From positions 1 through 64,000 of the forward strand of contig CANLZY010000020.1 of NCBI GenBank assembly GCA_947495685.1: a stretch of DNA of 64,000 bases. The letters run 5' to 3'. Shown here piece by piece: positions 176 to 13,603 of this stretch. The notes beneath the pieces are model-generated. The model searched no databases and was not told where the DNA came from. It worked only from the letters and a program-made list of their open reading frames with translations. The stretch's first letter is position 1. Each line of letters begins with the position of its first letter. The DNA is from an uncultured Tropicimonas sp. GTDB taxonomy: Bacteria; Pseudomonadota; Alphaproteobacteria; Rhodobacterales; Rhodobacteraceae. The position numbers and the translations under genes are program-made.

Positions 176-1442
176 TCAAGCCACCTTCCGTTCGAAGGCG
201 AAGAGGCTTTTCCAGCCCAGTGCTGAATGGCGGCGGCGCGGATTGTAGAGGCCGTTGATGTACTGGAAGATCGCCATTTCCGCTTGCCTGCGCGTTTCCT
301 AGGATTGCCGCCAAAAAAGCTCCGCTTTGATGGTTTTGAAGAAGGTTTCGACGGCAGCGTTCTGCGCCTTTGAATGATCCCCCGGATCGTTCAATCCGCT
401 GGCGCGGACCTGCTTGAACTCGTAGCAATTACCTTTGCCGCTCATGGACACTTGGAAGCCATGTTGACGGAGGATCTTCTGATAGTCGTGTGAACAATAT
501 TGGCTGACCCAGTCGGTGTGATGGATGCAGCCTCTTGGTGGTGATCGGAACGCGATGGCCATCTTCAGCGCACGGATCGTCAACCTCTCGGCGATGCAGA
601 CATCGCCTGCCGGTCAGTGGATCACGTTTCATCCGATTGCTGACAGCCCATCCAACTAAACGGCGGGAATGCAGGTCCAGGATGACGGCAAGATATAGCC
701 AACCCTAACGCGTCCAGACATAGCTGATGTCACCGGCCGACTTCTGGTTAGGTTGGCCAGCCGCAAAATCCCGATCCAGCAGGTCAGGAGCGATGTTGAA
801 CTTGTGGTCGCTATCCGTCGTGACCTTGTGTTTGCGCGTTCTGACAACGGATATGCCGTTCTGGCGCATCAAGCGACCCAAACGTCGATGCCCGACATTC
901 AAGCCGATCCCCTTCAGCTCTTGGGTCATGCGCGGGCGGCCATGGCTTCCCAGGTTGAGACGCGACTGTTCCTTGATATGTGCCAGCGTCACCAGATCAC
1001 TGCGTTGTCTGCGGCTGGCTGGGCGACTGCGCAAAACACCCAATCCGCGCGTACTGACCTCCGTAACCTGACACAGGCGCTCAGTCGAGAACTGGGCTCG
1101 GTGCTCTTCCACAAACCTGAACCTCACGGCTTTTGGCTCGCGAAGAACTCCGTGGCCTTCGTCGGGGAAACGCCACACTGGGGCCTTTCCGGATCCTCCT
1201 CGGTTTGGGATGTCCCGCTCCTCCTTGAGATTGCGGTTCTCCCGACGCAGCCGGTCATTCTCCTTGGCGAGGCTCAAATCCTCGTTCGACACGACATCTG
1301 TGTCTCGGTGTGCTGTGACCCATTTGTTCAGCGTCGACATTCCGACACCCAGATCATCGCCCACCTGCTTGCGCGTCAGCCCGCGGGTCAGTGCCATGCG
1401 CACCGCATCCTTTCGGAACTCGTCCGTCCCGCCATGTCCCAT
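176..1442 (-). pseudogene. IS3-family transposase (OrfA/OrfB), multiply disrupted
   Basis: On the minus strand the ATG at 1442 opens an OrfA helix-turn-helix (RKQVGDDLGVGMSTLNKW) and its leucine-zipper-like tail (RLRRENRNLKEERD). OrfB motifs follow in the same frame (GRPRMTQELKGIGL, then GDISYVWTR), although the family normally separates OrfA and OrfB by a -1 frameshift. The frame ends at an in-frame TAG at 705-707. Homology resumes past the stop ([15 protein letters not shown]) and again in another frame ([30 protein letters not shown]). The C-terminus (ETRRQAEMAIFQYINGLYNP, then RRRHSALGWKS) ends at TGA 176-178. An extra segment of about 60 bp lies at 362-421, between the second catalytic Asp (HHTD) and the Glu (VETFF). 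With a nonsense codon, frameshifts and this insertion the element cannot make a normal transposase. I could not define its terminal inverted repeats. Confidence 0.88.
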
Positions 1443-1551: not shown

Positions 1552-2499
1552 TCAGATGACCGTGATTTCGCCTTCAAGGTTTCCAAGCAGCACGTCGTCT
1601 GCTCCCTGAAAGCCAGCCAGCACGATTTCGTCTGTCCCGAAATCCAAACCGACCCCTCGCTTGTCGACGAAGCCAAATGTGTTCACGATCTCGGATGTGG
1701 CAAGGTCGCCGCTCCACAGGGCATCGTCCAGCAAAAGCGTATCGGGATCCCACTGAAAATCCCAAATGGTATCAACTCCAGAGCCCGCACGGAAAACAAA
1801 CGCGTCCTTTCCGTCCCCGCCGGTCATTGAATCGTCGCCCTTGCCGCCCTCGATCCGATCCGGACCGCCGCCGCCCGACAATTCGTCCTGTCCGGCACCG
1901 CCCTTGAGGAAGTCGGCCCCGACCCCGCCGAACAACCTGTCGTCGCCACGTTCGCCAAACAGCCTGTCACCGTCGGCGCCGCCCCGAAGCGTATCCTTGC
2001 CGTCGCCACCCTTCAGGACGTCGCGGCCTTCGTGTCCGCGCATGATGTCCTGTCCGCCATAGCCGAAGACAATGTCGTGCTGATTGCTCAGCAGGAACTT
2101 GTCATCGCCAGCAAGCGCTTGGCGCAGAAAACCGTAATCGTCATCGACCGCTTCCGTCGCGGCGGCGTCGAAAATCGAAGTGGCGGCGACCGAGATGTTG
2201 TTCATCCCGATGTAGTACCTCCAGGTCGCGTCCTGATAGTCCCAGAAGAATTCGAAAAAGCCGGTCGCCGTGCCGTCAAATACCTCGATATCATCGGCAT
2301 CAAGCTCTTCCCCCACGATGGCGGTCGAGTAAAAGTTCGCCCGATAATTCCAATAGATTTCGAAATCATCGGTATAGACCTCACCGTCGATCGTGAAAGG
2401 GTCATCGTCGTAAAAACAGGACCCTACTGCGCCGCGGACAGACCGGTTGAGATCGAAGTCGGTCATGTCGAAGGAAAAGTCCGCATAGATGTGTGCCAT
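1552..2499 (-). CDS. RTX-type calcium-binding protein
   Basis: This 315-residue acidic protein has an N-terminal domain of about 125 residues rich in aromatic and acidic residues. About ten glycine/aspartate nonapeptide repeats follow at residues 130-240 (for example GGDGKDTLR, GERGDDRLF, GGVGADFLK), the pattern that binds Ca2+ in a parallel beta-roll. It ends in a short C-terminal domain (VLLGNLEGEITVI). There is no N-terminal signal peptide, which fits type I secretion in this family; no ABC/MFP transporter genes lie nearby. I chose the ATG at 2499 because GGAGGG sits just upstream; an in-frame ATG four codons earlier would overlap that site. Function beyond secretion is unknown. It is one of three RTX genes in the window. 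Confidence 0.82.
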   Translation of the reverse strand: MAHIYADFSFDMTDFDLNRSVRGAVGSCFYDDDPFTIDGEVYTDDFEIYWNYRANFYSTAIVGEELDADDIEVFDGTATGFFEFFWDYQDATWRYYIGMNNISVAATSIFDAAATEAVDDDYGFLRQALAGDDKFLLSNQHDIVFGYGGQDIMRGHEGRDVLKGGDGKDTLRGGADGDRLFGERGDDRLFGGVGADFLKGGAGQDELSGGGGPDRIEGGKGDDSMTGGDGKDAFVFRAGSGVDTIWDFQWDPDTLLLDDALWSGDLATSEIVNTFGFVDKRGVGLDFGTDEIVLAGFQGADDVLLGNLEGEITVI

Positions 2500-2858
2500 A
2501 ACACCCTCCATTCAGACACCATCCCGGCAGCGCGGATTTTAAACGTTCAACGTTGGGCAGTCCTTGATGATGGTCAAAGGGTGCGCCTCTCTACGGCTTG
2601 CGCAGGGGGCAAGGTGGGTTTGCATTCGCCCAAATGGCGAGCGGCCACATGGTCAGCGCCTCTCCGCTCCCTCAAGAGTAACAGAATCACTCACCCAATT
2701 CGTGGGAAGACCGTGGACGGCGCAGCGGCGGGTGTAGATCGCGCCGAGAAATGCCAATTCTTTACAACCGCCAGCACACAGGCTGCCCATTTTGCAGGCA
2801 CATATCGAAACCTTCCATCGTGTCTGTTCCTGCCATTGCCAAGGTAGGACAATCTCCT
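2500..2858. other. Intergenic region between divergent RTX and ATP-grasp genes
   Basis: About 360 bp with no convincing gene. It should carry the promoters for both divergent units. The only local symmetry I see is AACGTT-C-AACGTT near 2541-2553, which is palindromic and could be a regulatory site, but nothing ties it to a known factor. Confidence 0.4.
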
Positions 2859-4295
2859 ATGGTCGGTGGGATGAACACTGAAAACACTCATTTCAACGAA
2901 ATGCGGTCAACGGTCGGCGCCCGTCGTCCTTACGCGATCTACGATGACTGGTTTGCGCAACAGGACAATGAACGGCTGACCCAGAAATCCGCTGAAGCAG
3001 AAGCGTTTTTTCGGCGAACCGGGATCACCTTCAATGTCTATGGCCAGACCGACGCCGAAGAACGCCTGATCCCGTTCGATCTCGTTCCGCGGATCCTGGC
3101 CAATCACGAATGGACCAAGCTGGCGAAGGGGATCGAACAACGGGTCTACGCCATCAATGCGTTCCTGCATGACATATACAACCGCCAGGAAATACTGCGG
3201 GCCGGTGTGCTCCCGACCGACCTGATCGCGAATAACGACGCGTTCTTGCCGCAGATGATGAATTTCAGCCCGCCGGGCGATGTCTACACCCACATCGTCG
3301 GCACCGACATCGTTCGTACGGGCGAGGACGATTTTTTTGTGCTGGAGGACAATGCACGCACGCCATCCGGGGTCAGCTACATGCTGGAGAACCGCGAGAC
3401 GATGCTGCAGATGTTCCCGGAATTGTTCAGCAATATCCGGGTTCAGCCGGTCAGCGATTACCCCAAGAACCTGCGCCGCTCGCTTGAGGCATCGGCGCCC
3501 AGATCTTGCAATGGCAGGCCCTGCGTCGCCGTGTTGACGCCGGGGATCCATAACTCCGCCTATTACGAGCACAGCTTTCTGGCGGACCAGATGGGTGTGG
3601 AGTTGGTCGAAGGGCATGATCTGCGGGTCGTGGACGGCCATATCGCGATGCGCACGACGCGCGGCTACAAGGTGATCGATGTCCTGTATCGCCGGGTGGA
3701 CGATGATTTTCTCGATCCGCTGACATTCAATCCGAAGTCGATGCTGGGTGTGCCCGGGATCATGGATGTCTACCGCGCCGGCAACATTGCGATCGCGAAT
3801 GCACCCGGCACGGGCGTCGCTGACGACAAGGCGATCTATAGCTATGTCCCCGACATCGTGGAGTTCTACACCGGCGAGCGGGCAATCCTGAAGAACGTTC
3901 TGACGCATCGCTGTTCCGAGCCGGACACCTTGCGCTACGTCCTCGACAATCTTGCTGACCTGGTGGTCAAGGAAGTGCATGGGTCGGGCGGATACGGCAT
4001 GCTCGTCGGCCCTGCGGCCAGCAAGACGGAATTGGCGGATTTCGCTGACAAGCTCCGGGCGAACCCGGCAAATTATATCGCTCAGCCGACCCTGGCGTTG
4101 TCGACCGTGCCGATCTTCACGGAAAGCGGCCTCGCGCCCCGGCATGTCGATCTGCGGCCATTTGCACTGGTGTCGCCCCGGGGCATTAATATTACGCCGG
4201 GTGGATTGACGCGGGTTGCGCTGCAGGAGGGATCTTTGGTGGTCAACTCATCACAGGGCGGCGGGACCAAGGATACCTGGGTGTTGGAAGACTAG
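2859..4295 (+). CDS. Circularly permuted ATP-grasp protein (COG2308, DUF404/DUF407)
   Basis: The 478-residue product has the hallmarks of the circularly permuted type 2 ATP-grasp family: an N-terminal FNEM-type segment and DDWF, the central DIVRTGEDDFFVLEDNARTP, the VLTPG segment, and the C-terminal VVKEVHGSGGYGM phosphate-binding loop. Family members are predicted amide- or peptide-ligase-like enzymes acting on an unknown substrate. I favour the ATG at 2859, preceded by AAGGTAGGA; an in-frame ATG at 2871 is an alternative. It is the first gene of a compact unit with the alpha-E, transglutaminase and Anbu genes, 1 bp from the next start. This association recurs across Proteobacteria and suggests synthesis and turnover of a small peptide or peptide tag. 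Confidence 0.9.
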   Translation: MVGGMNTENTHFNEMRSTVGARRPYAIYDDWFAQQDNERLTQKSAEAEAFFRRTGITFNVYGQTDAEERLIPFDLVPRILANHEWTKLAKGIEQRVYAINAFLHDIYNRQEILRAGVLPTDLIANNDAFLPQMMNFSPPGDVYTHIVGTDIVRTGEDDFFVLEDNARTPSGVSYMLENRETMLQMFPELFSNIRVQPVSDYPKNLRRSLEASAPRSCNGRPCVAVLTPGIHNSAYYEHSFLADQMGVELVEGHDLRVVDGHIAMRTTRGYKVIDVLYRRVDDDFLDPLTFNPKSMLGVPGIMDVYRAGNIAIANAPGTGVADDKAIYSYVPDIVEFYTGERAILKNVLTHRCSEPDTLRYVLDNLADLVVKEVHGSGGYGMLVGPAASKTELADFADKLRANPANYIAQPTLALSTVPIFTESGLAPRHVDLRPFALVSPRGINITPGGLTRVALQEGSLVVNSSQGGGTKDTWVLED

Positions 4296-4296
4296 A

Positions 4297-5238
4297 ATGC
4301 TGGGAAAAACCGCAGGTGGCCTGTACTGGATGTTCCGCTTTCTCGAGCGGGCTGAAAATACTGCGCGCCTTATCGAAGCCGGGTTCCGCATTGCGCTGAC
4401 CCGCTCTGACGACGCCGAAGCGGAGTGGAAATCCGTCATTGTCACCAGCGCCTGTCAGGGGCCCTACGAGACGAACCATGACGGCTATGACAGCACCAGG
4501 GTGGTCGACTTCCTGCTGCGCGACCAAAACAATCCCAGCTCGGTCCTGTCTGTCATCAAGGCCGCCCGCGACAATGCCCGACTGGTGCGCACCGCCCTCA
4601 CGACCGAAGTCTGGTATGCCGTCAATGACACGTGGATGCTGTTCGCCGATCTGTTGAAAAACCCGATCCCGGAAACCGAACTGCCGGCCGTCCTGGCAAC
4701 CATTCGCCAGCAATCTGCGCTGGTGCGCGGAGCGATGCATGGCACCATGTTGCGCAATGACATCTACGATTTCTGCCGGTTGGGCACCGCGATCGAACGG
4801 ATGGACAACACCGCACGGATCATCGACGTCAAATACTATTCGCTGCTGCCGTCGCCGTCGTTTGTTGGCAGCCGTATGGACAACGTTCAGTGGGAGACGA
4901 TCTTGCGGTCGGTGTCGGCGCACCGGTCGTTTCGGTGGGCGGTGGAGGAGGACTTTACCGCACCGGCCATCGCCAGCTTCCTGATCCTTGATCGCCGGAT
5001 GCCGCGGTCACTGTCCTTCTGTGCCGGACGGATTGCCGGAAATCTTGATTTCCTTGCCGAGCAGTACGGCTGCCGCGTCCCCTCAAACGATATGGCGGAC
5101 AAATTGCGCGCACGGCTTCAGAACCGCGACATAGGCTCGATCTTTGACGAGGGTCTGCACGAGTTCGTAGAGCAGATCATCAGGGACGCCGCCCAAATCG
5201 GAAAACAGATCGAACTCGACTACAGGTTTATTGGGTAG
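4297..5238 (+). CDS. Alpha-E domain protein (COG2307, DUF403)
   Basis: This 313-residue all-helical protein starts MLGKTAGGLYWMFR and carries the family's conserved segments: FRFLERAENTARLIEAGFR near the N-terminus, then RLGTAIERMDNTARIIDVKYY, and later SFCAGRI. Alpha-E proteins almost always accompany the permuted ATP-grasp enzyme, either as a neighbour or fused to it. Their biochemical role is not established; they may be a partner or adaptor subunit. The start codon lies 1 bp after the ATP-grasp stop, and its own stop directly abuts the ATG of the transglutaminase gene, so translational coupling is likely. Confidence 0.9.
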   Translation: MLGKTAGGLYWMFRFLERAENTARLIEAGFRIALTRSDDAEAEWKSVIVTSACQGPYETNHDGYDSTRVVDFLLRDQNNPSSVLSVIKAARDNARLVRTALTTEVWYAVNDTWMLFADLLKNPIPETELPAVLATIRQQSALVRGAMHGTMLRNDIYDFCRLGTAIERMDNTARIIDVKYYSLLPSPSFVGSRMDNVQWETILRSVSAHRSFRWAVEEDFTAPAIASFLILDRRMPRSLSFCAGRIAGNLDFLAEQYGCRVPSNDMADKLRARLQNRDIGSIFDEGLHEFVEQIIRDAAQIGKQIELDYRFIG

Positions 5239-6036
5239 ATGCAGCTTCAGATCAGCCACCGGACCGAATACACCTACAGCGAGCCCGTGGTGTACATCCT
5301 GCAAAAGGTGCGCCTTCACCCCCTGACCTCGCCTCTCCAGACTGTGCTCAAGTGGGATGTCGACATCACCGGCGGCAGACTGGAAACGCAGTACAGGGAC
5401 CATTACGGGAATCACGTGGATCTGGTCAGCGTCGATCCAGGTGCCCGATCCCTCAGCATCGAAGCCAGCGGCACCGTTCAGACACAGCCTTCTATCGGGG
5501 TTCTTGGCAACGAGCGAACCTGCGCGCCATTGTGGCTCTTTCGGCAGCCAACACTACAGACCATGCCAGGGCCGGCAACGCAGGCCCTGTCGAAAATGAT
5601 AGATACCGGTGCCGGACAACTCGACAGCCTTCATGACCTGTCCACGGCGATCCTTGAGGCCGTCCCGTATGAGCTTGGCGAAACGCATGCGCATACCAGC
5701 GCCGAGGCGGCCCTGACCGGTGGGCGCGGCGTATGTCAGGATCATGCCCATATCTTTGTGGCGGCGGCACGGTTCGCCGGCGTACCGGCCCGATACGTCA
5801 GCGGGTACCTGATGATGGATGACACCATCGATCAGGATGCCACCCATGCCTGGGCCGAAGCCCATGTGGACGGGCTCGGTTGGGTCGGGTTCGACGTCTC
5901 GAACGGCATATCCCCGGACGAGCGCTATGTGCGCATCGCCGCTGGCCGCGATTCCCGGGAAGCGTCCCCGATCGAAGGGCTTCGCCTGGGCACCGCCGAC
6001 GAGACTCTGATTGTATCTTTGCAGGTGCAACAGTAA
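5239..6036 (+). CDS. Transglutaminase-like cysteine protease family protein (COG1305)
   Basis: The 265-residue product has the N-terminal beta domain typical of bacterial transglutaminase-like proteins (LQISHRTEYTYSEPV) followed by the papain-like core. The expected triad is visible: Cys166 in RGVCQDHAH, His203 in DATHAWAEAH and Asp219 in GWVGFDVSN. There is no signal peptide, so it should act in the cytoplasm. Such proteins probably cleave or transfer at amide bonds. In this operon it may process the product of the ATP-grasp/alpha-E pair; that is inference from context. Its ATG follows the alpha-E stop without a gap. Confidence 0.9.
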   Translation: MQLQISHRTEYTYSEPVVYILQKVRLHPLTSPLQTVLKWDVDITGGRLETQYRDHYGNHVDLVSVDPGARSLSIEASGTVQTQPSIGVLGNERTCAPLWLFRQPTLQTMPGPATQALSKMIDTGAGQLDSLHDLSTAILEAVPYELGETHAHTSAEAALTGGRGVCQDHAHIFVAAARFAGVPARYVSGYLMMDDTIDQDATHAWAEAHVDGLGWVGFDVSNGISPDERYVRIAAGRDSREASPIEGLRLGTADETLIVSLQVQQ

Positions 6037-6069
6037 GCAAAGCCGAAATTCGCACTTCGGGTGGAGCAG

Positions 6070-6801
6070 ATGACTTATTGCATTGGCATGCGGCTGGACA
6101 AAGGACTCGTGTTCATGTCGGACACACGCACCAGCGCCGGCGTGGACAATTTTGCCGTCAGCCGAAAGATGTTCACCTGGAACGTACCGGGCGAACGGGC
6201 GATCACGATCATGACCGCCGGCAACCTCGCCACGACCCAGTCGCTGGTCAGCCTTCTGGAGGAACGCTCCAGATCGCCGGAAGACCGGGATCCAAGCATC
6301 CTGCACAAGGAAACCATGTTCCAGGTTGCGCGGCTGGTCGGGCAAACCCTCAAGGAAGTCATCACGAACAGCTCTCCCAGCGGGCAGACATCGGATGATC
6401 AGTTCGGAGCCTCTCTGATTGTTGGCGGGCAGATTCGCGGCGGCAAGCCGACGGTTTTCATGATCTATCCCGAGGGCAACTTCATCGAAGTCACCGATGA
6501 CACGCCGTTCTTTCAGATTGGCGAAACCAAGTACGGCAAACCGATCCTGGTGCGGGCCTACGATCCGAGCATGAGCTTTGAAGAAGCGTTGAAGCTGCTG
6601 TTGATCTCCTTTGACTCCACCATCAAGTCGAACCTGTCCGTGGGCCTGCCGTTCGACCTTCAGATCTACGAAAACGACACGTTCGATAGCAGCCGGAAAA
6701 AACGTATCGAGAACGATGACCCTGTGTACCAGGCCATTTCCTCGGGATGGGGGGACGCGCTGCGAGACGCCTTCCAACTGCTGCCGAGCTATTCGGTCTG
6801 A
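6070..6801 (+). CDS. Anbu, bacterial proteasome-like Ntn hydrolase
   Basis: The 243-residue product begins MTYCIGM. Removal of Met exposes the N-terminal threonine nucleophile expected of Anbu. Asp17 (SDTRTSAG) and a lysine at mature position 32 (SRKMF) occupy the usual active-site neighbourhood, and TAGNLATTQS matches the core glycine segment. An in-frame ATG nine bases upstream (6061) would bury the threonine, so the start at 6070 is preferred; GGTGGAG precedes it. Anbu forms open helical or ring-like assemblies related to HslV and the 20S beta subunit. The natural substrate and the meaning of its constant linkage with ATP-grasp, alpha-E and transglutaminase proteins are unknown. A peptide made by those neighbours is a plausible target. 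Confidence 0.9.
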   Translation: MTYCIGMRLDKGLVFMSDTRTSAGVDNFAVSRKMFTWNVPGERAITIMTAGNLATTQSLVSLLEERSRSPEDRDPSILHKETMFQVARLVGQTLKEVITNSSPSGQTSDDQFGASLIVGGQIRGGKPTVFMIYPEGNFIEVTDDTPFFQIGETKYGKPILVRAYDPSMSFEEALKLLLISFDSTIKSNLSVGLPFDLQIYENDTFDSSRKKRIENDDPVYQAISSGWGDALRDAFQLLPSYSV

Positions 6802-8733: not shown

Positions 8734-9627
8734 ATGGAACGGGTGGAATTGACGGTCGGGCTGGAGCTGAGCCGGATTGTCTATGGCATGTGGCGGCTTG
8801 GCGATGACAAGGACACCTCGGCCAAGCGCGTTCAGGCCAAGATCGAAGCCTGCTTGGAACAGGGCATCACCAGCTTTGACCAGGCCGACATCTATGGTGG
8901 CTACACCGCCGAGGCGCTGCTCGGAGCAGCCCTGAAAAAGGCGCCCAAGCTGCGGGATCAGATGGAGATCATCACCAAGTGCGATATCATCGCCCCGATC
9001 GGCAGATATGCCGACAGGACAGTGAAATACTACGACACCAGCGCGGCCCATATCGTAAGCTCGATCGAGCGGTCGCTGCGCAAGCTTTCGATCGACCGGA
9101 TCGACCTGCTGCTCCTGCACCGCCCCGACCCCTTGATGGACCATTTCGAGACCGGGCGGGCGCTGGATGAGGCCGTGGCCTCGGGCAAGGTACGCGCGGT
9201 CGGTGTGTCGAATTTCAAGCCGCATGACTGGACGCTGCTGCAAAGTGCAATGCAGACCCGCCTCGCCACCAACCAGATCGAGATCTCGCTGCTCGTCAAC
9301 GACCCGATGACCAATGGTGAGCTGGCGTTTCTTCAGGAACTGGACGTGCCGCCGATGGCGTGGTCACCTCTGGCCGGCGGCGCGCTGCTGTCCTCGGGGC
9401 ACAGCCAGATGAATGCCGCGCTGAAGAAGGTTGGCAAGCGGGACGGTGTGGATTCCATGCTGGTGGCAATCGCCTGGCTGCTGGCCCACCCCGCCTGCAT
9501 CCTTCCGGTCATCGGCACCAACACGCTGGAACGGATCCGCATGATGTCGGACGCTTTCAAGGTGAACATGGATCGCCAGACATGGTACGAGCTTTACACT
9601 GCCGCCCTGGGACATGAGGTGCCCTGA
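8734..9627 (+). CDS. Aldo/keto reductase (YdhF-like)
   Basis: The 297-residue (beta/alpha)8 oxidoreductase shows the AKR tetrad: Asp49 and Tyr54 in FDQADIYGGY, Lys82 in IITKCDI and His129 in LLLLHRPD. VRAVGVSNF and the late VIGTNTLERI support NADP(H) binding. The first strand (VELTVGLELSRIVYGMWRL) resembles the YdhF/COG4989 subgroup. The start follows GGAGGG with 7-bp spacing. The natural carbonyl substrate cannot be read from the sequence. A flavin reductase gene follows 25 bp downstream, so the two may be co-transcribed. Confidence 0.87.
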   Translation: MERVELTVGLELSRIVYGMWRLGDDKDTSAKRVQAKIEACLEQGITSFDQADIYGGYTAEALLGAALKKAPKLRDQMEIITKCDIIAPIGRYADRTVKYYDTSAAHIVSSIERSLRKLSIDRIDLLLLHRPDPLMDHFETGRALDEAVASGKVRAVGVSNFKPHDWTLLQSAMQTRLATNQIEISLLVNDPMTNGELAFLQELDVPPMAWSPLAGGALLSSGHSQMNAALKKVGKRDGVDSMLVAIAWLLAHPACILPVIGTNTLERIRMMSDAFKVNMDRQTWYELYTAALGHEVP

Positions 9628-9652
9628 TGCGGTCGGACCGGAAAGGACGCCC

Positions 9653-10153
9653 ATGACTGCCGAGAGTTTCACGCCCGGCCCCAGCCGCGAACGCGCCCTG
9701 CGCACGGCGTTGGGCGCCTTTGCCACCGGGGTGACGGTCGTCACCTGTCGGGATACGAGCGCTGGCCCGCTGGGGTTCACCGCCAACAGCTTTGCCAGTG
9801 TATCCCTCGATCCGCCCCTGGTGCTGTGGTCGCCCTCTGTCGCCTCGCCCCGGCACGATGCCTTTGTCGCTGCGCAGGATTTTTCGATCCATGTCCTTGC
9901 GGCGGACCAGTTGCACCTGTCACAGCGTTTTGCCGAGCGGGCGGACGATTTCAACGGTCTGGACTGGCACGATAGCCCGAACGGCGTGCCCCTTCTGGAC
10001 GGCTGCCTGACCCGTCTGGACTGCCGTCATTTTGCGACCCACGGCGCGGGGGATCACACCATCGTGCTGGGGCTGGTCGAACAGGTCACCCATACACCGG
10101 GCGCGCCGCTGCTGTTTGCCTTGGGCGCCTATGGACGTTTCTCTGGCCTGTAG
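9653..10153 (+). CDS. Flavin reductase family protein
   Basis: This 166-residue protein matches the flavin-reductase-like FMN-binding split-barrel family: LGAFATGVTVVTC near residue 20, LGFTANSFASVSLDPPLVLW near residue 42, and a C-terminal ALGAYGRF. Members reduce free FMN/FAD with NAD(P)H to feed two-component monooxygenases, although some act independently. No monooxygenase component lies next to it. The start at 9653 is preceded by GGAAAGGA. It overlaps the leftward extension of the next reading frame, so the PaaX-like gene is given a later start. Confidence 0.85.
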   Translation: MTAESFTPGPSRERALRTALGAFATGVTVVTCRDTSAGPLGFTANSFASVSLDPPLVLWSPSVASPRHDAFVAAQDFSIHVLAADQLHLSQRFAERADDFNGLDWHDSPNGVPLLDGCLTRLDCRHFATHGAGDHTIVLGLVEQVTHTPGAPLLFALGAYGRFSGL

Positions 10154-10229
10154 CCCCCGTTCCGACCTGTCCCGGCGGTGTACCATTCCGCCCCTTGCAT
10201 CCCGCGAGCGGCCCGTCGATGGTCCGGAC

Positions 10230-11063
10230 ATGGCGCCACGACACCCCGATCCGATTGCCCCGATGATCCGGGCCCTCCATGCCGAGGGCCGACCGAGGGT
10301 ATGGTCGCTGATCGTTACGGTGCTGGGCGATGCGGCAGAACCCCATGGCGGCAATATCGCCTCGGCCCGGCTTGCCGCGCTGCTGGCGCGGATCGACATC
10401 GCCCCGGGTGCGATGCGCGCCGCATTGTCCCGCCTTGTAGGTGATGGATGGCTGGAGCGCAGCCGTCAGGGCCGCTCCAGTTCCTATCGCCTTGGACGCG
10501 ACCGAGGACAGGCATTCCACAACGCCAGTCGTCGGATCTATGCCCCGCCAGTCACCACCGCGCCCGACGCCTGGGTTCTGGGCGTTGGCGAGGAGGCAAC
10601 GACGGATGGCGGCGTACGGATCGCTCCGGGCGTGGTATTGTGGCCTGCCGGGTTGGCACCCGCCCCGTCGGCCGGACTGCGCATCACCGGCAGGATCGAC
10701 TTGCAGGATCCGCTGCCCCTGCCGCGTGATCATCGCGATGCGCTGGACCGGATGCGGGGCGACCTCTCGTCAGTGGCCGATGATATCGACCGGCTGCAAC
10801 CTCTCGATGCGATGGCCGCCCGGATGTTGCTGGTGCATCGCTGGCGCCGGCTTGTCCTGCGCTATCCCGACCTTCCGGTGCCGCTCGACCCGAGTGGCGC
10901 GACGAACCTGCGCCACGACATGGCCCGGGCCTATGGGCGGCTCTTGCCCGCTTCTGAGGCCTGGTTGGAGCAACCTGGCGAGGGGTTCGACCCAATGCCG
11001 GTGGCGAACTTCGCGCCGAATGCCCGCTTTTCGGGCACCCGACCGGGGAGCGGCCCCGGATGA
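10230..11063 (+). CDS. PaaX-family transcriptional repressor
   Basis: The 277-residue protein has an N-terminal winged helix characteristic of PaaX (SLIVTVLGDAAEPHGG, then APGAMRAALSRLVGDGWLER, then GRSSSYRLG). A PaaX-like C-terminal domain contains LLVHRWRRLVLRYPDLP. PaaX represses phenylacetate catabolism by sensing phenylacetyl-CoA, but no paa genes are in the window, so the regulon here is unknown. The start at 10230 is chosen on family length and because it lies after the flavin reductase stop; an ATG at 10131 is possible but would overlap the upstream gene. Confidence 0.8.
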   Translation: MAPRHPDPIAPMIRALHAEGRPRVWSLIVTVLGDAAEPHGGNIASARLAALLARIDIAPGAMRAALSRLVGDGWLERSRQGRSSSYRLGRDRGQAFHNASRRIYAPPVTTAPDAWVLGVGEEATTDGGVRIAPGVVLWPAGLAPAPSAGLRITGRIDLQDPLPLPRDHRDALDRMRGDLSSVADDIDRLQPLDAMAARMLLVHRWRRLVLRYPDLPVPLDPSGATNLRHDMARAYGRLLPASEAWLEQPGEGFDPMPVANFAPNARFSGTRPGSGPG

Positions 11064-11209: not shown

Positions 11210-13603
11210 ATGACTCCCTCCGAAATGAAAGACGCCATCCTGCACCACCTGGTGTACACGCTCGGCAAGGACGCCGCCCACGCCAAGATTTATGACTGGC
11301 GCATGGCGCTGTCCTTTGCGGTGCGTGACCAGATCGTGGACCGCTGGTTCGCTGCCACACGCCAGACCTACGGCAACAAGATGAAGCGGGTCTATTACCT
11401 GTCGATGGAATTCCTGATCGGCCGGTTGCTGAAAGATGCGATCATCAACATGCGGCTGGAAGAGGCCGCCATTGACGCGCTGGACTCGCTGAAGGTCGAT
11501 TACCTCGAAATCCTCGGCGACGAGCCTGACGCGGCGCTCGGCAACGGTGGCCTCGGTCGCCTGGCCGCGTGCTTCCTGGAATCCATGGCAACCATCGGCT
11601 GCCCGGCCATGGGCTACGGCATCCGCTATGAACACGGCCTGTTCCGCCAGCGGTTCGAGGACGACCGGCAGATGGAAGAGCCCGAGGATTGGTTGAGCCA
11701 GCGTCACGCGTGGGAATTCGAACGCCCCGAGGTCGCGATCGATATCGGCTTTGGCGGCCATGTGCAGGAAATCGGCACGCGGGCAAACTGGTACCCGGGC
11801 GAGATGCTGATCGCCATGGCACACGACACCCCGGTGATCGGCTGGAACGGTCGTTGGGGCAACACCCTGCGCCTGTGGGAAGCCCGCCCGATGCATGGCT
11901 TCGACCTGGCCCGGTTCAACCGTGGCGACTATGCCGCCGCCGCCGAACCCGAGGCACTGGCCCGGACGCTGAGCCGGGTGCTGTACCCGGATGACACGAC
12001 CGAGCAAGGCAAGGAACTGCGGCTGAAGCAGGAGTTCTTCTTCACATCTGCCTCGCTGCGCGACATCCTGCGCCGCTTTGAAAGCGAGTACGACGACCTG
12101 CGCCTGCTGCCGAAAAAGGCCGCGATCCAGATGAACGACACGCACCCGGCCATCGCCGGGCCGGAACTGGTGCGCCTGCTGCATGACGAACGCAACATCG
12201 ACTTCGAAGAGGCCGTCGGGATCGCGCGCAACACGCTGTCCTACACCAACCACACGCTGCTGCCCGAGGCGCTGGAGCGCTGGTCCGAAGGGCTGATGGG
12301 CCGGCTGCTGCCGCGCCATCTGCAACTGATCGGTCGCATCGACGAATTGCACAAGCGCGAGACCGGCACCCACAAGGTCACCGCGCTGGAGGATGGTCAC
12401 GTCAAGATGGGCGAGCTGTCCTTCATCATGGCCCACAAGGTGAACGGCGTTTCGGCGCTGCACACCAACCTGATGAAGACCACCGTCTTCAAGGATCTTC
12501 ACGAACTTCACCCCAACCGCATCGTCAACGAGACCAATGGCGTAACGCCGCGCCGCTGGCTGCTGTCGTGCAACCCGCGGCTGGCCGGCCTGATCACCGA
12601 GGCGATCGGCGAGGGCTGGGTCGACGACCTGGAGCAGTTGCGCGAGCTGGAGCCGTTCATCGCGGACCCGGCGTTCCTTGATCGGTTCACCGCCGCCAAG
12701 CGGGACAACAAGGCCGAGCTGGCCAATTGGGTTGCCGATTCGCTGGAAGTCGGAATCGACCCCGACGCGATCTTCGACGTGCAGATCAAGCGCATCCACG
12801 AATACAAGCGCCAGCACCTGAACATCCTGGAGACCATCGCCCACTGGCTGGAAATCCGGGACAATCCGAACGGGGGCTGGGTGCCCCGCGTCAAGATCTT
12901 CGCCGGCAAGGCCGCACCGGGCTATGCCTTTGCCAAGGACATCATCCGTCTGGCCAACAACGTCGCACGGGTGCTGAACAGCGACCCGCTGACCAGCCGC
13001 TATCTGAAGGTGATCTACCCGCCCAACTACAACGTTTCGTTGGCCGAACGCCTGATTCCGGCCTCGGACCTGTCCGAGCAGATATCGACTGCGGGCAAGG
13101 AAGCCTCCGGCACCGGCAACATGAAGTTCGCCCTGAACGGCGCGTTGACCGTCGGCACCCTGGATGGCGCCAACGTGGAGATCCGCGAAAAGGTCGGCGC
13201 CGAGAACTTCTTCCTGTTCGGGATGACGGCCGACGAGGTCATGGCCCGTCGTCAGGTTGGCGGCCACGCCGGGCGCGCGATCGCCGCGGACCCGCGCCTG
13301 AACCGTGCAATCGAAACCATCCGCGCCGGACGGTTCAGCCCGGACGAGCCCGGACGCTATCACGGCATCACGGACAACCTGATCCACCACGACTACTTCC
13401 TGGTGTGTTCGGACTTCAGCGATTACTGGCGCGCTCAGCGTGAGGTCGACACGGCTTATGGCGATCAGGCGAAGTGGGCCCACATGGCGGCTCTGAACAC
13501 GGCGCGGTCTGGTTGGTTCAGTTCGGACCGGACGATCCGGGGTTACATGGCCGAGGTCTGGAAGGCAGAGGCAGCCACGACAGGCGACGACGCCGCAGGA
13601 TGA
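11210..13603 (+). CDS. glgP: Glycogen phosphorylase
   Basis: The 797-residue protein is full length for the GT35 family. It releases glucose-1-phosphate from the non-reducing ends of glycogen with inorganic phosphate. Recognisable stretches include YYLSMEFLIGR, LGNGGLGRLAACF, NDTHPAIA, and the PLP site GKEASGTGNMKF with the Schiff-base lysine near residue 639. The start is preceded by ACGAGGACG. It opens the seven-gene glg operon, with 44 bp to glgB. Degradation and synthesis genes sharing one transcript suggests that flux is set mainly at enzyme level. Confidence 0.96.
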   Translation: MTPSEMKDAILHHLVYTLGKDAAHAKIYDWRMALSFAVRDQIVDRWFAATRQTYGNKMKRVYYLSMEFLIGRLLKDAIINMRLEEAAIDALDSLKVDYLEILGDEPDAALGNGGLGRLAACFLESMATIGCPAMGYGIRYEHGLFRQRFEDDRQMEEPEDWLSQRHAWEFERPEVAIDIGFGGHVQEIGTRANWYPGEMLIAMAHDTPVIGWNGRWGNTLRLWEARPMHGFDLARFNRGDYAAAAEPEALARTLSRVLYPDDTTEQGKELRLKQEFFFTSASLRDILRRFESEYDDLRLLPKKAAIQMNDTHPAIAGPELVRLLHDERNIDFEEAVGIARNTLSYTNHTLLPEALERWSEGLMGRLLPRHLQLIGRIDELHKRETGTHKVTALEDGHVKMGELSFIMAHKVNGVSALHTNLMKTTVFKDLHELHPNRIVNETNGVTPRRWLLSCNPRLAGLITEAIGEGWVDDLEQLRELEPFIADPAFLDRFTAAKRDNKAELANWVADSLEVGIDPDAIFDVQIKRIHEYKRQHLNILETIAHWLEIRDNPNGGWVPRVKIFAGKAAPGYAFAKDIIRLANNVARVLNSDPLTSRYLKVIYPPNYNVSLAERLIPASDLSEQISTAGKEASGTGNMKFALNGALTVGTLDGANVEIREKVGAENFFLFGMTADEVMARRQVGGHAGRAIAADPRLNRAIETIRAGRFSPDEPGRYHGITDNLIHHDYFLVCSDFSDYWRAQREVDTAYGDQAKWAHMAALNTARSGWFSSDRTIRGYMAEVWKAEAATTGDDAAG

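Follow-up and report, generated by a model that had tools for sequence, protein, structure and literature searches.

The first kilobases of a 64,000-nucleotide stretch of DNA from an uncultured Tropicimonas sp. (contig CANLZY010000020.1, Rhodobacteraceae), called the window below, hold four genes on the plus strand that are preceded by a candidate NtrC box. They encode, in this order, a circularly permuted ATP-grasp protein (2859 to 4295, with an alternative start at 2871), the all-helical protein Alpha-E with its ER motifs (4297 to 5238), a transglutaminase-like protein with a Cys-His-Asp triad (TG, 5239 to 6036) and Anbu, a proteasome-like N-terminal nucleophile hydrolase (6070 to 6801). The families were assigned by Pfam matches to CP_ATPgrasp_2 (PF14403, E 3e-161) for the first protein, which also has the solved relative 3n6x, to PF04168 (E 7e-87) for Alpha-E, to Transglut_core (PF01841, 1e-22) and Bact_transglu_N (PF08379, 3e-20) for TG, and to Proteasome (E 1e-11) for the last protein, which also matched five solved Anbu sequences (5loy, 5nyj, 5nyf, 5nyw and 5lox; best E 8e-85). 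In NCBIfam, three of the four proteins had no match and Anbu reached only proteasome models below their cut-off. An earlier, sequence-only reading of the stretch had named the same four families and given the gaps between the open reading frames (ORFs) as 1, 0 and 33 bp; the matches above and the ORF coordinates, all on the plus strand, bear out both statements. The ATP-grasp protein probably starts at 2871 rather than at 2859, as this start fits the N-termini of its relatives better. The short gaps, together with the lack of any detected same-strand terminator-like site between the four genes, are at most consistent with a single transcript, and we infer that the genes are co-transcribed.

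This set is the published Anbu operon and not a new system, and as a genomic find it is ordinary. Two structural papers describe exactly this four-gene operon and study it in part (PMC6376114, PMC5666114), with reference to Iyer 2009 and to Valas and Bourne 2008, and Anbu was named in 2008 (PMC5666114). The sequence-only reading had presented the locus as an under-described system whose product is not known: the first half of that description falls with these papers, and the second stands, the function being unproven in both. We found no literature that settles the function of the Anbu operon, in a search that left most subscription journals outside. Gene order and orientation place the window set among Anbu operons, as do Thr1, Asp17 and Lys32/33 taken together with the solved-Anbu matches.

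The catalytic residues are in place. Thr1 and Asp17 of Anbu are intact, as had been claimed, and Lys32 is present as well, all at least 99% conserved among 135 aligned Anbu sequences; an alignment of 25 sequences also supports the assignment. In TG, the triad consists of C166, which is 95-99% conserved, and of H203 and D219, each conserved in at least 99% of 111 sequences, and the two ER motifs of Alpha-E (E17-R18 and E167-R168) are likewise conserved (family alignments of 111-135 sequences each). An AlphaFold2 model of Alpha-E has a mean predicted local distance difference test score of 89.5. With the single sequence as query, no solved relative of this protein was found up to E 1, a profile search of solved structures gave two short matches at E 0.2, which we treat as background, and a Foldseek comparison of the model with solved folds gave no match with E <= 0.001; the helical membrane proteins in its listing are also treated as background. 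For the ATP-grasp protein, 3n6x, annotated as a putative glutathionylspermidine synthase, is the only solved sequence relative, and beyond it a profile search of solved structures gave one short match at E 0.6 to an unrelated protein.

The order of the genes is conserved, which disposes of the refutation by unconserved gene order that the sequence-only reading had offered, and its statement that the combination recurs in Proteobacteria is right. We surveyed 117 loci from a translated search (L033-L149) and 20 from the family of the window, which with L069 and L078 left out and the window counted makes 136; because these loci were chosen by Anbu similarity or presence, the counts measure order and not presence. 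The order ATP-grasp, Alpha-E, TG, Anbu is found in 108 of them, and 21 are arranged otherwise, among them ten divergent Anbu loci (L059-L068) without a partner detected by our queries and three cut by contig ends. Presence was assessed class-wide in 142 genomes, of which 35 have Anbu and 48 have Alpha-E. Anbu strictly co-occurs with Alpha-E in this sample: Alpha-E is present in 35 of 35 genomes with Anbu, versus 13 of 107 without (Fisher p 9e-23). By their coordinates, the two genes lie together in 22 of the 35 genomes and are unlinked in 13. Within the family of the window, 83 of 120 genomes have Anbu, in two groups about 53-83% and 45-53% identical to the window protein; 82 of these 83 genomes have one match, the remaining one has two partial pieces, and both groups were seen together in none.

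The upstream palindrome and the type of promoter

The palindrome upstream of the operon is our addition to the sequence-only reading, and it is the strongest lead to physiology. The candidate NtrC box, TGCCCATTTTGCAGGCA, occupies positions 2784 to 2800 with no strand assigned, has the form TGCC-N9-GGCA, sits 59-75 bp before the ATG at 2859 and is supported by dyad enumeration, by a weight matrix and by a consensus match. All 4-mer dyads were enumerated in the 250 bp upstream of the ATP-grasp gene in 65 loci including the window, 7 of 8 closely similar Mesorhizobium loci having been dropped. TGCC-N9-GGCA was found in 15 of the 65 regions, for 0.62 expected; in 40 shuffled sets, the most frequent dyad reached a count of 8. 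CTGCCTAAATTTTAGGCAG forms the centre of many operon sites, which lie about 100 bp ahead of the start and are sometimes doubled, 42-43 bp apart. A refined pattern matches four times in the 5.64-Mb genome, once just before a PII gene (identified by Pfam) that is followed by a glutamine-synthetase-like frame. The window holds a second exact match to this pattern at 11021-11037, inside the end of the ORF at 10263-11063 and before a glycogen phosphorylase gene at 11210; its matrix score is below 8, and the match may be due to chance.

A stricter pattern was matched in 101 of 295 genomes of the family, versus 4 for the reversed control. We annotated 111 sites in 110 loci (G162 and G239 excluded) by similarity to reference proteins named by eye. 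Among the matches listed, 61 sites are near uvrC, 11 at nifR3-ntrB, 7 at glnB, 2 at amtB and 4 at the Anbu operon, with 10 more at unnamed genes and 16 without a gene start within 350 bp. A Pfam check of one protein per kind returned Dus for nifR3, PAS and histidine kinase domains for ntrB, ammonium transporter, UvrC, glutamine synthetase and PII. The palindrome on the uvrC side, TGCCYRAWWWWTAGGCA (L176-L285), mostly lies about 155 bp ahead of uvrC, and the intergenic stretch there has DnaA-box-like TTATCCACAG. It may be an origin-linked element or an unannotated RNA, or the box may have a second use here; no Rfam family was found in ten loci searched, eight of which carry it.

The weight matrix was trained on 20 nifR3-ntrB, glnB and amtB sites, none of them from the operon, and calibrated on 858 control regions, which lie upstream of other genes of these loci; 1% of them reach 12.2 bits. 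The operon upstream regions that it recovers at this cut are 24 of the 72 of window type, 10 of the 19 of type B and 4 of the 21 distant ones, for 0.4% of shuffles, and the 10th to 90th percentiles of the match positions span 92-130 bp upstream. All eight Mesorhizobium loci are among the 24, and without the seven near-duplicates the count becomes 17 of 65. The window box scores 13.1 bits, just above the cut, and is the best matrix match in the 64 kb. Elsewhere in the same genome, a box of 20.8 bits is flanked by nifR3-ntrBC on one side and by another gene on the other, and one of 19.7 bits precedes glnB. In Paracoccus denitrificans, an NtrC box of the form (T/C)GC(C/A)N4TTN2T(G/A)GCA is reported as predicted before glnBA, amtB and nasTS, and mutating the box at nasT abolished induction (PMC5424462). 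The window site has the same geometry and agrees with this consensus at 10 of 11 specified positions. The first gene of the operon is preceded, as expected in an NtrC regulon, by a candidate NtrC box.

Genes homologous to those of the operon have been connected to nitrogen before. According to the literature, PP_2685-PP_2688 of Pseudomonas putida are induced by nitrogen limitation and likely controlled by NtrB/NtrC, the homologous genes of Burkholderia cenocepacia depend on NtrC and sigma-54, an RpoN site is predicted before a CP-ATP-grasp gene of Bradyrhizobium, COG3484 appears in a survey of the sigma-54 regulon, and an association with urea genes is reported from marine metagenomes. This published NtrC/sigma-54 link is why a -24/-12 promoter was tested first, and for the window operon it was rejected. 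The consensus of the sigma-54 element is TGGCAC-N5-TTGC. The best site in the window agrees with it at 6 of 11 positions, and the 93 upstream regions scanned show no general enrichment, matches of at least 8 of 11 being found in 20% of them, for 17% of shuffles, and matches of at least 10 of 11 in three (shuffles 0.2%). No RpoN domain (PF00309, PF04552) was found in the genome of the window. The three loci with 10 or 11 of 11 (L043, L048 and L052) are distant and lie in rpoN-bearing genomes; each also has a box-like palindrome, which begins 67-70 bp ahead of the promoter and scores well in L048 and L052 and weakly (1.9) in L043. A further locus, L056, matches at 9 of 11 positions without a box upstream. 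Among 56 genomes picked for Anbu, the RpoN domain is absent from 20 of 35 in the family of the window and present in 21 of 21 outside it. The NtrC-like protein of the window's own genome lacks the GAFTGA loop, and Rhodobacterales NtrC proteins are reported to lack it, that of Rhodobacter capsulatus acting with sigma-70. Since no sigma-54 gene is detectable in the genome and its NtrC-like protein is GAFTGA-less, control of the operon is probably sigma-54-independent.

Nitrogen starvation and the proposed role of the operon

Our preferred explanation, which we consider moderately probable, is that a complete Anbu operon belongs to the NtrC regulon of an alphaproteobacterium without detectable sigma-54 and would act as a conjugation-and-recycling module in nitrogen starvation. 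Nitrogen regulation of the operon appears well supported, if not proven, and the chemistry is what we infer from the families and from the regulation. When ammonium is scarce, the phosphorylated GAFTGA-less NtrC would bind the box at 2784-2800 and activate a housekeeping-type promoter, and the four proteins would be made together. The ATP-grasp protein, with Alpha-E as its obligate helical partner, could attach a small amine or an amino acid to a carboxylate of peptides or proteins at the expense of ATP, TG would move, trim or remove the attached group, and Anbu, an N-terminal-threonine hydrolase, would cleave the resulting amide or peptide, nitrogen being recycled by the formation and breakdown of the conjugate. 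The tag would not come from a conserved small ORF next to the operon. The search for such an ORF that the sequence-only reading had proposed covered 1,476 small ORFs in 106 loci, a set cleared of nine near-duplicate loci from rhizobia, and found none; as no cluster exceeds 4 of the 106 loci, a gene-encoded protein tag next door is unsupported. With a ligase and hydrolases jointly induced in nitrogen limitation, as published for P. putida, tagging and recycling fit better than storage.

Several observations weigh against this explanation. TG is missing between Alpha-E and Anbu in 7 of the 136 loci (L039, L040, L051, L053, L054, L132 and L167), and it may thus be dispensable. The four matches of the refined pattern in the genome compare with three for the reversed control, the one mismatch of the window site to the Paracoccus consensus is at position 13, where the glnB box of the same genome has it too, and no box scoring at least 8 was found in the fetched stretches around the genome's own urease genes. 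The box is not universal, as 48 of the 72 window-type upstream regions score below the 1% cut; the ten loci of Sphingomonadales type (L096, L097, L103, L105, L113, L133, L139 and L145-L147) all fall below even the 5% cut, and at least one control region scores 30 with the matrix. With the ntrC model TIGR01818, no match in the genome attains the cut-off. Of the palindrome sites listed, the majority is near uvrC, which is not known as a nitrogen gene, so that the motif may serve more than NtrC. Finally, Anbu is reported not to cleave standard peptide substrates in two studies, one of which also used labelled casein, and one of the two found no specific interaction among the operon proteins (PMC6376114, PMC5666114).

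Anbu could instead be a self-compartmentalising protease for bulk or damaged protein in nitrogen starvation, which the other three proteins regulate or feed, an alternative that we regard as unlikely. A split-ring dodecamer is described, epoxomicin and MG132 bind Thr1 in Pa-Anbu, and the authors favour degradation (PMC5666114); induction by nitrogen starvation in P. putida would also suit plain turnover. Bulk degradation would not need Alpha-E, however, and Anbu never occurs without Alpha-E in the 142 genomes; the clustering of neighbouring genes revealed no unfoldase gene recurring beside the operon, and the failure to cleave standard peptide substrates likewise argues against such a protease.

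A dedicated pathway for a small peptide or metabolite, in which a non-ribosomal peptide or polyamine conjugate would be the product of the ATP-grasp protein and Alpha-E and the substrate that TG and Anbu process or degrade, seems to us similarly improbable. Glutathionylspermidine synthetase/amidase makes and breaks its own product, and the annotation of 3n6x points in the same direction. So does urease, which occurs in 27 of 48 genomes with Alpha-E versus 10 of 94 others (strong matches only, genome size uncorrected), whereas glycogen phosphorylase shows no link with Alpha-E (10 of 48 versus 11 of 94, strong matches only); with weak matches left out, 37 of 59 urease and 21 of 26 phosphorylase genomes were kept. 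A role in peptide synthesis was proposed by Iyer et al. 2009, as cited in PMC6376114 and PMC5666114, but the latter rates it less likely. Furthermore, a nitrogen-rich product is unexpected when nitrogen is short, and in the neighbour-gene clustering neither a transporter gene nor a small-molecule gene recurs beside the operon in different lineages. That the palindrome is the site of a factor other than NtrC, nitrogen control then not applying to the operon here, is more doubtful still: the 61 uvrC sites and their intergenic region with DnaA-box-like repeats speak for it, but 20 of the 111 sites among the matches listed lie at nifR3-ntrB, glnB or amtB, and mutation data have been published for a box of the same geometry (PMC5424462).

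A conjugation-and-recycling module under NtrC would be expected to be switched on under ammonium limitation, and with a nitrogen box in a genome that has no detectable sigma-54, the question of function becomes testable. That question is narrowed by the box shared with core nitrogen genes and by the strict dependence of Anbu on Alpha-E, and the earlier failures in vitro may reflect missing modified substrates and not an inactive enzyme.

The surroundings of the operon vary. Clustering of 1,981 predicted ORFs from 116 loci gave no constant fifth gene, only lineage-specific synteny and a broad cluster of ABC-type ATPases besides the operon. In L075 (179-10732), urease genes (urease alpha by Pfam) are followed by an extra transglutaminase-like gene and then by the Anbu operon; this is the locus, among those read, with urease genes directly upstream, and L140 has urease-like genes elsewhere in its stretch. 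An extra transglutaminase-like gene also lies upstream in L079 and directly downstream of Anbu in L125, and in L039 a ThiF-family frame on the minus strand (9464-10216, Pfam E 1.5e-74) shares 4 bp with the end of Anbu. The genome of the window has a second cluster, C3 (L069, 3794-10402), with a TG-DUF2126 protein of 1104 aa, a fused CP-ATP-grasp/Alpha-E protein of 787 aa and another TG of 292 aa; no box scoring at least 8 was found in the stretch fetched around it. In the window, a gene for an RTX calcium-binding repeat protein (1552-2511, minus strand) diverges from the operon, and beyond it lies a transposase-like ORF (705-1442, minus strand; HTH_Tnp_1, HTH_21). A plasmid search matched 56 Sinorhizobium records, of which the ten listed share about 73% identity with the query over a third of its length.

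Comparison with known systems

The Pup-proteasome system of actinobacteria combines an ATP-dependent ligase with a proteasome-type core and is linked to nitrogen starvation. The window operon resembles it only in the way it might work, through a ligase, a proteasome-type protein and nitrogen starvation. Unlike the Pup system, it has no conserved small ORF nearby and no recurring linked unfoldase, and its ligase is an ATP-grasp protein whereas that of Pup is glutamine-synthetase-like. It is a speculative idea, which we advance with little confidence, that the operon encodes a pathway for tagging and degradation in nitrogen starvation, equivalent to a Pup-proteasome system without an unfoldase, in which the ATP-grasp protein and Alpha-E would attach a tag that is not gene-encoded, such as an amino acid or a polyamine, and Anbu would act only on tagged substrates. 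Its control would have been rewired, the NtrC enhancer box being kept and the sigma-54 core promoter lost in rpoN-less lineages, a reading suggested by L043, L048 and L052, which have promoter and box in rpoN-bearing genomes, and by the window, which has the box only.

Closer relatives are found among the genes reported to respond to nitrogen. In B. cenocepacia, I35_5080-5083 include DUF404/407, DUF403 and transglutaminase-like genes, like the window, and are described as dependent on NtrC and sigma-54. They differ in that two genes are transglutaminase-like, one of them large and recalling C3, and in that Anbu is not among the four as listed. PP_2685-PP_2688 of P. putida (Anbu, TG, a hypothetical protein and ATP-grasp) are, as far as annotated, the same gene set as in the window. 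P. putida has rpoN, an rpoN mutant of which has been studied (PMC7801951), whereas the window genome shows neither of the two sigma-54 domains. The Anbu operons described in Yersinia, Pseudomonas and others (PMC6376114, PMC5666114) share with the window the same four families in the same order, together with Thr1, Asp17 and Lys32/33; what sets the window apart from them is a genome without detectable sigma-54 and a candidate box for a sigma-54-independent NtrC.

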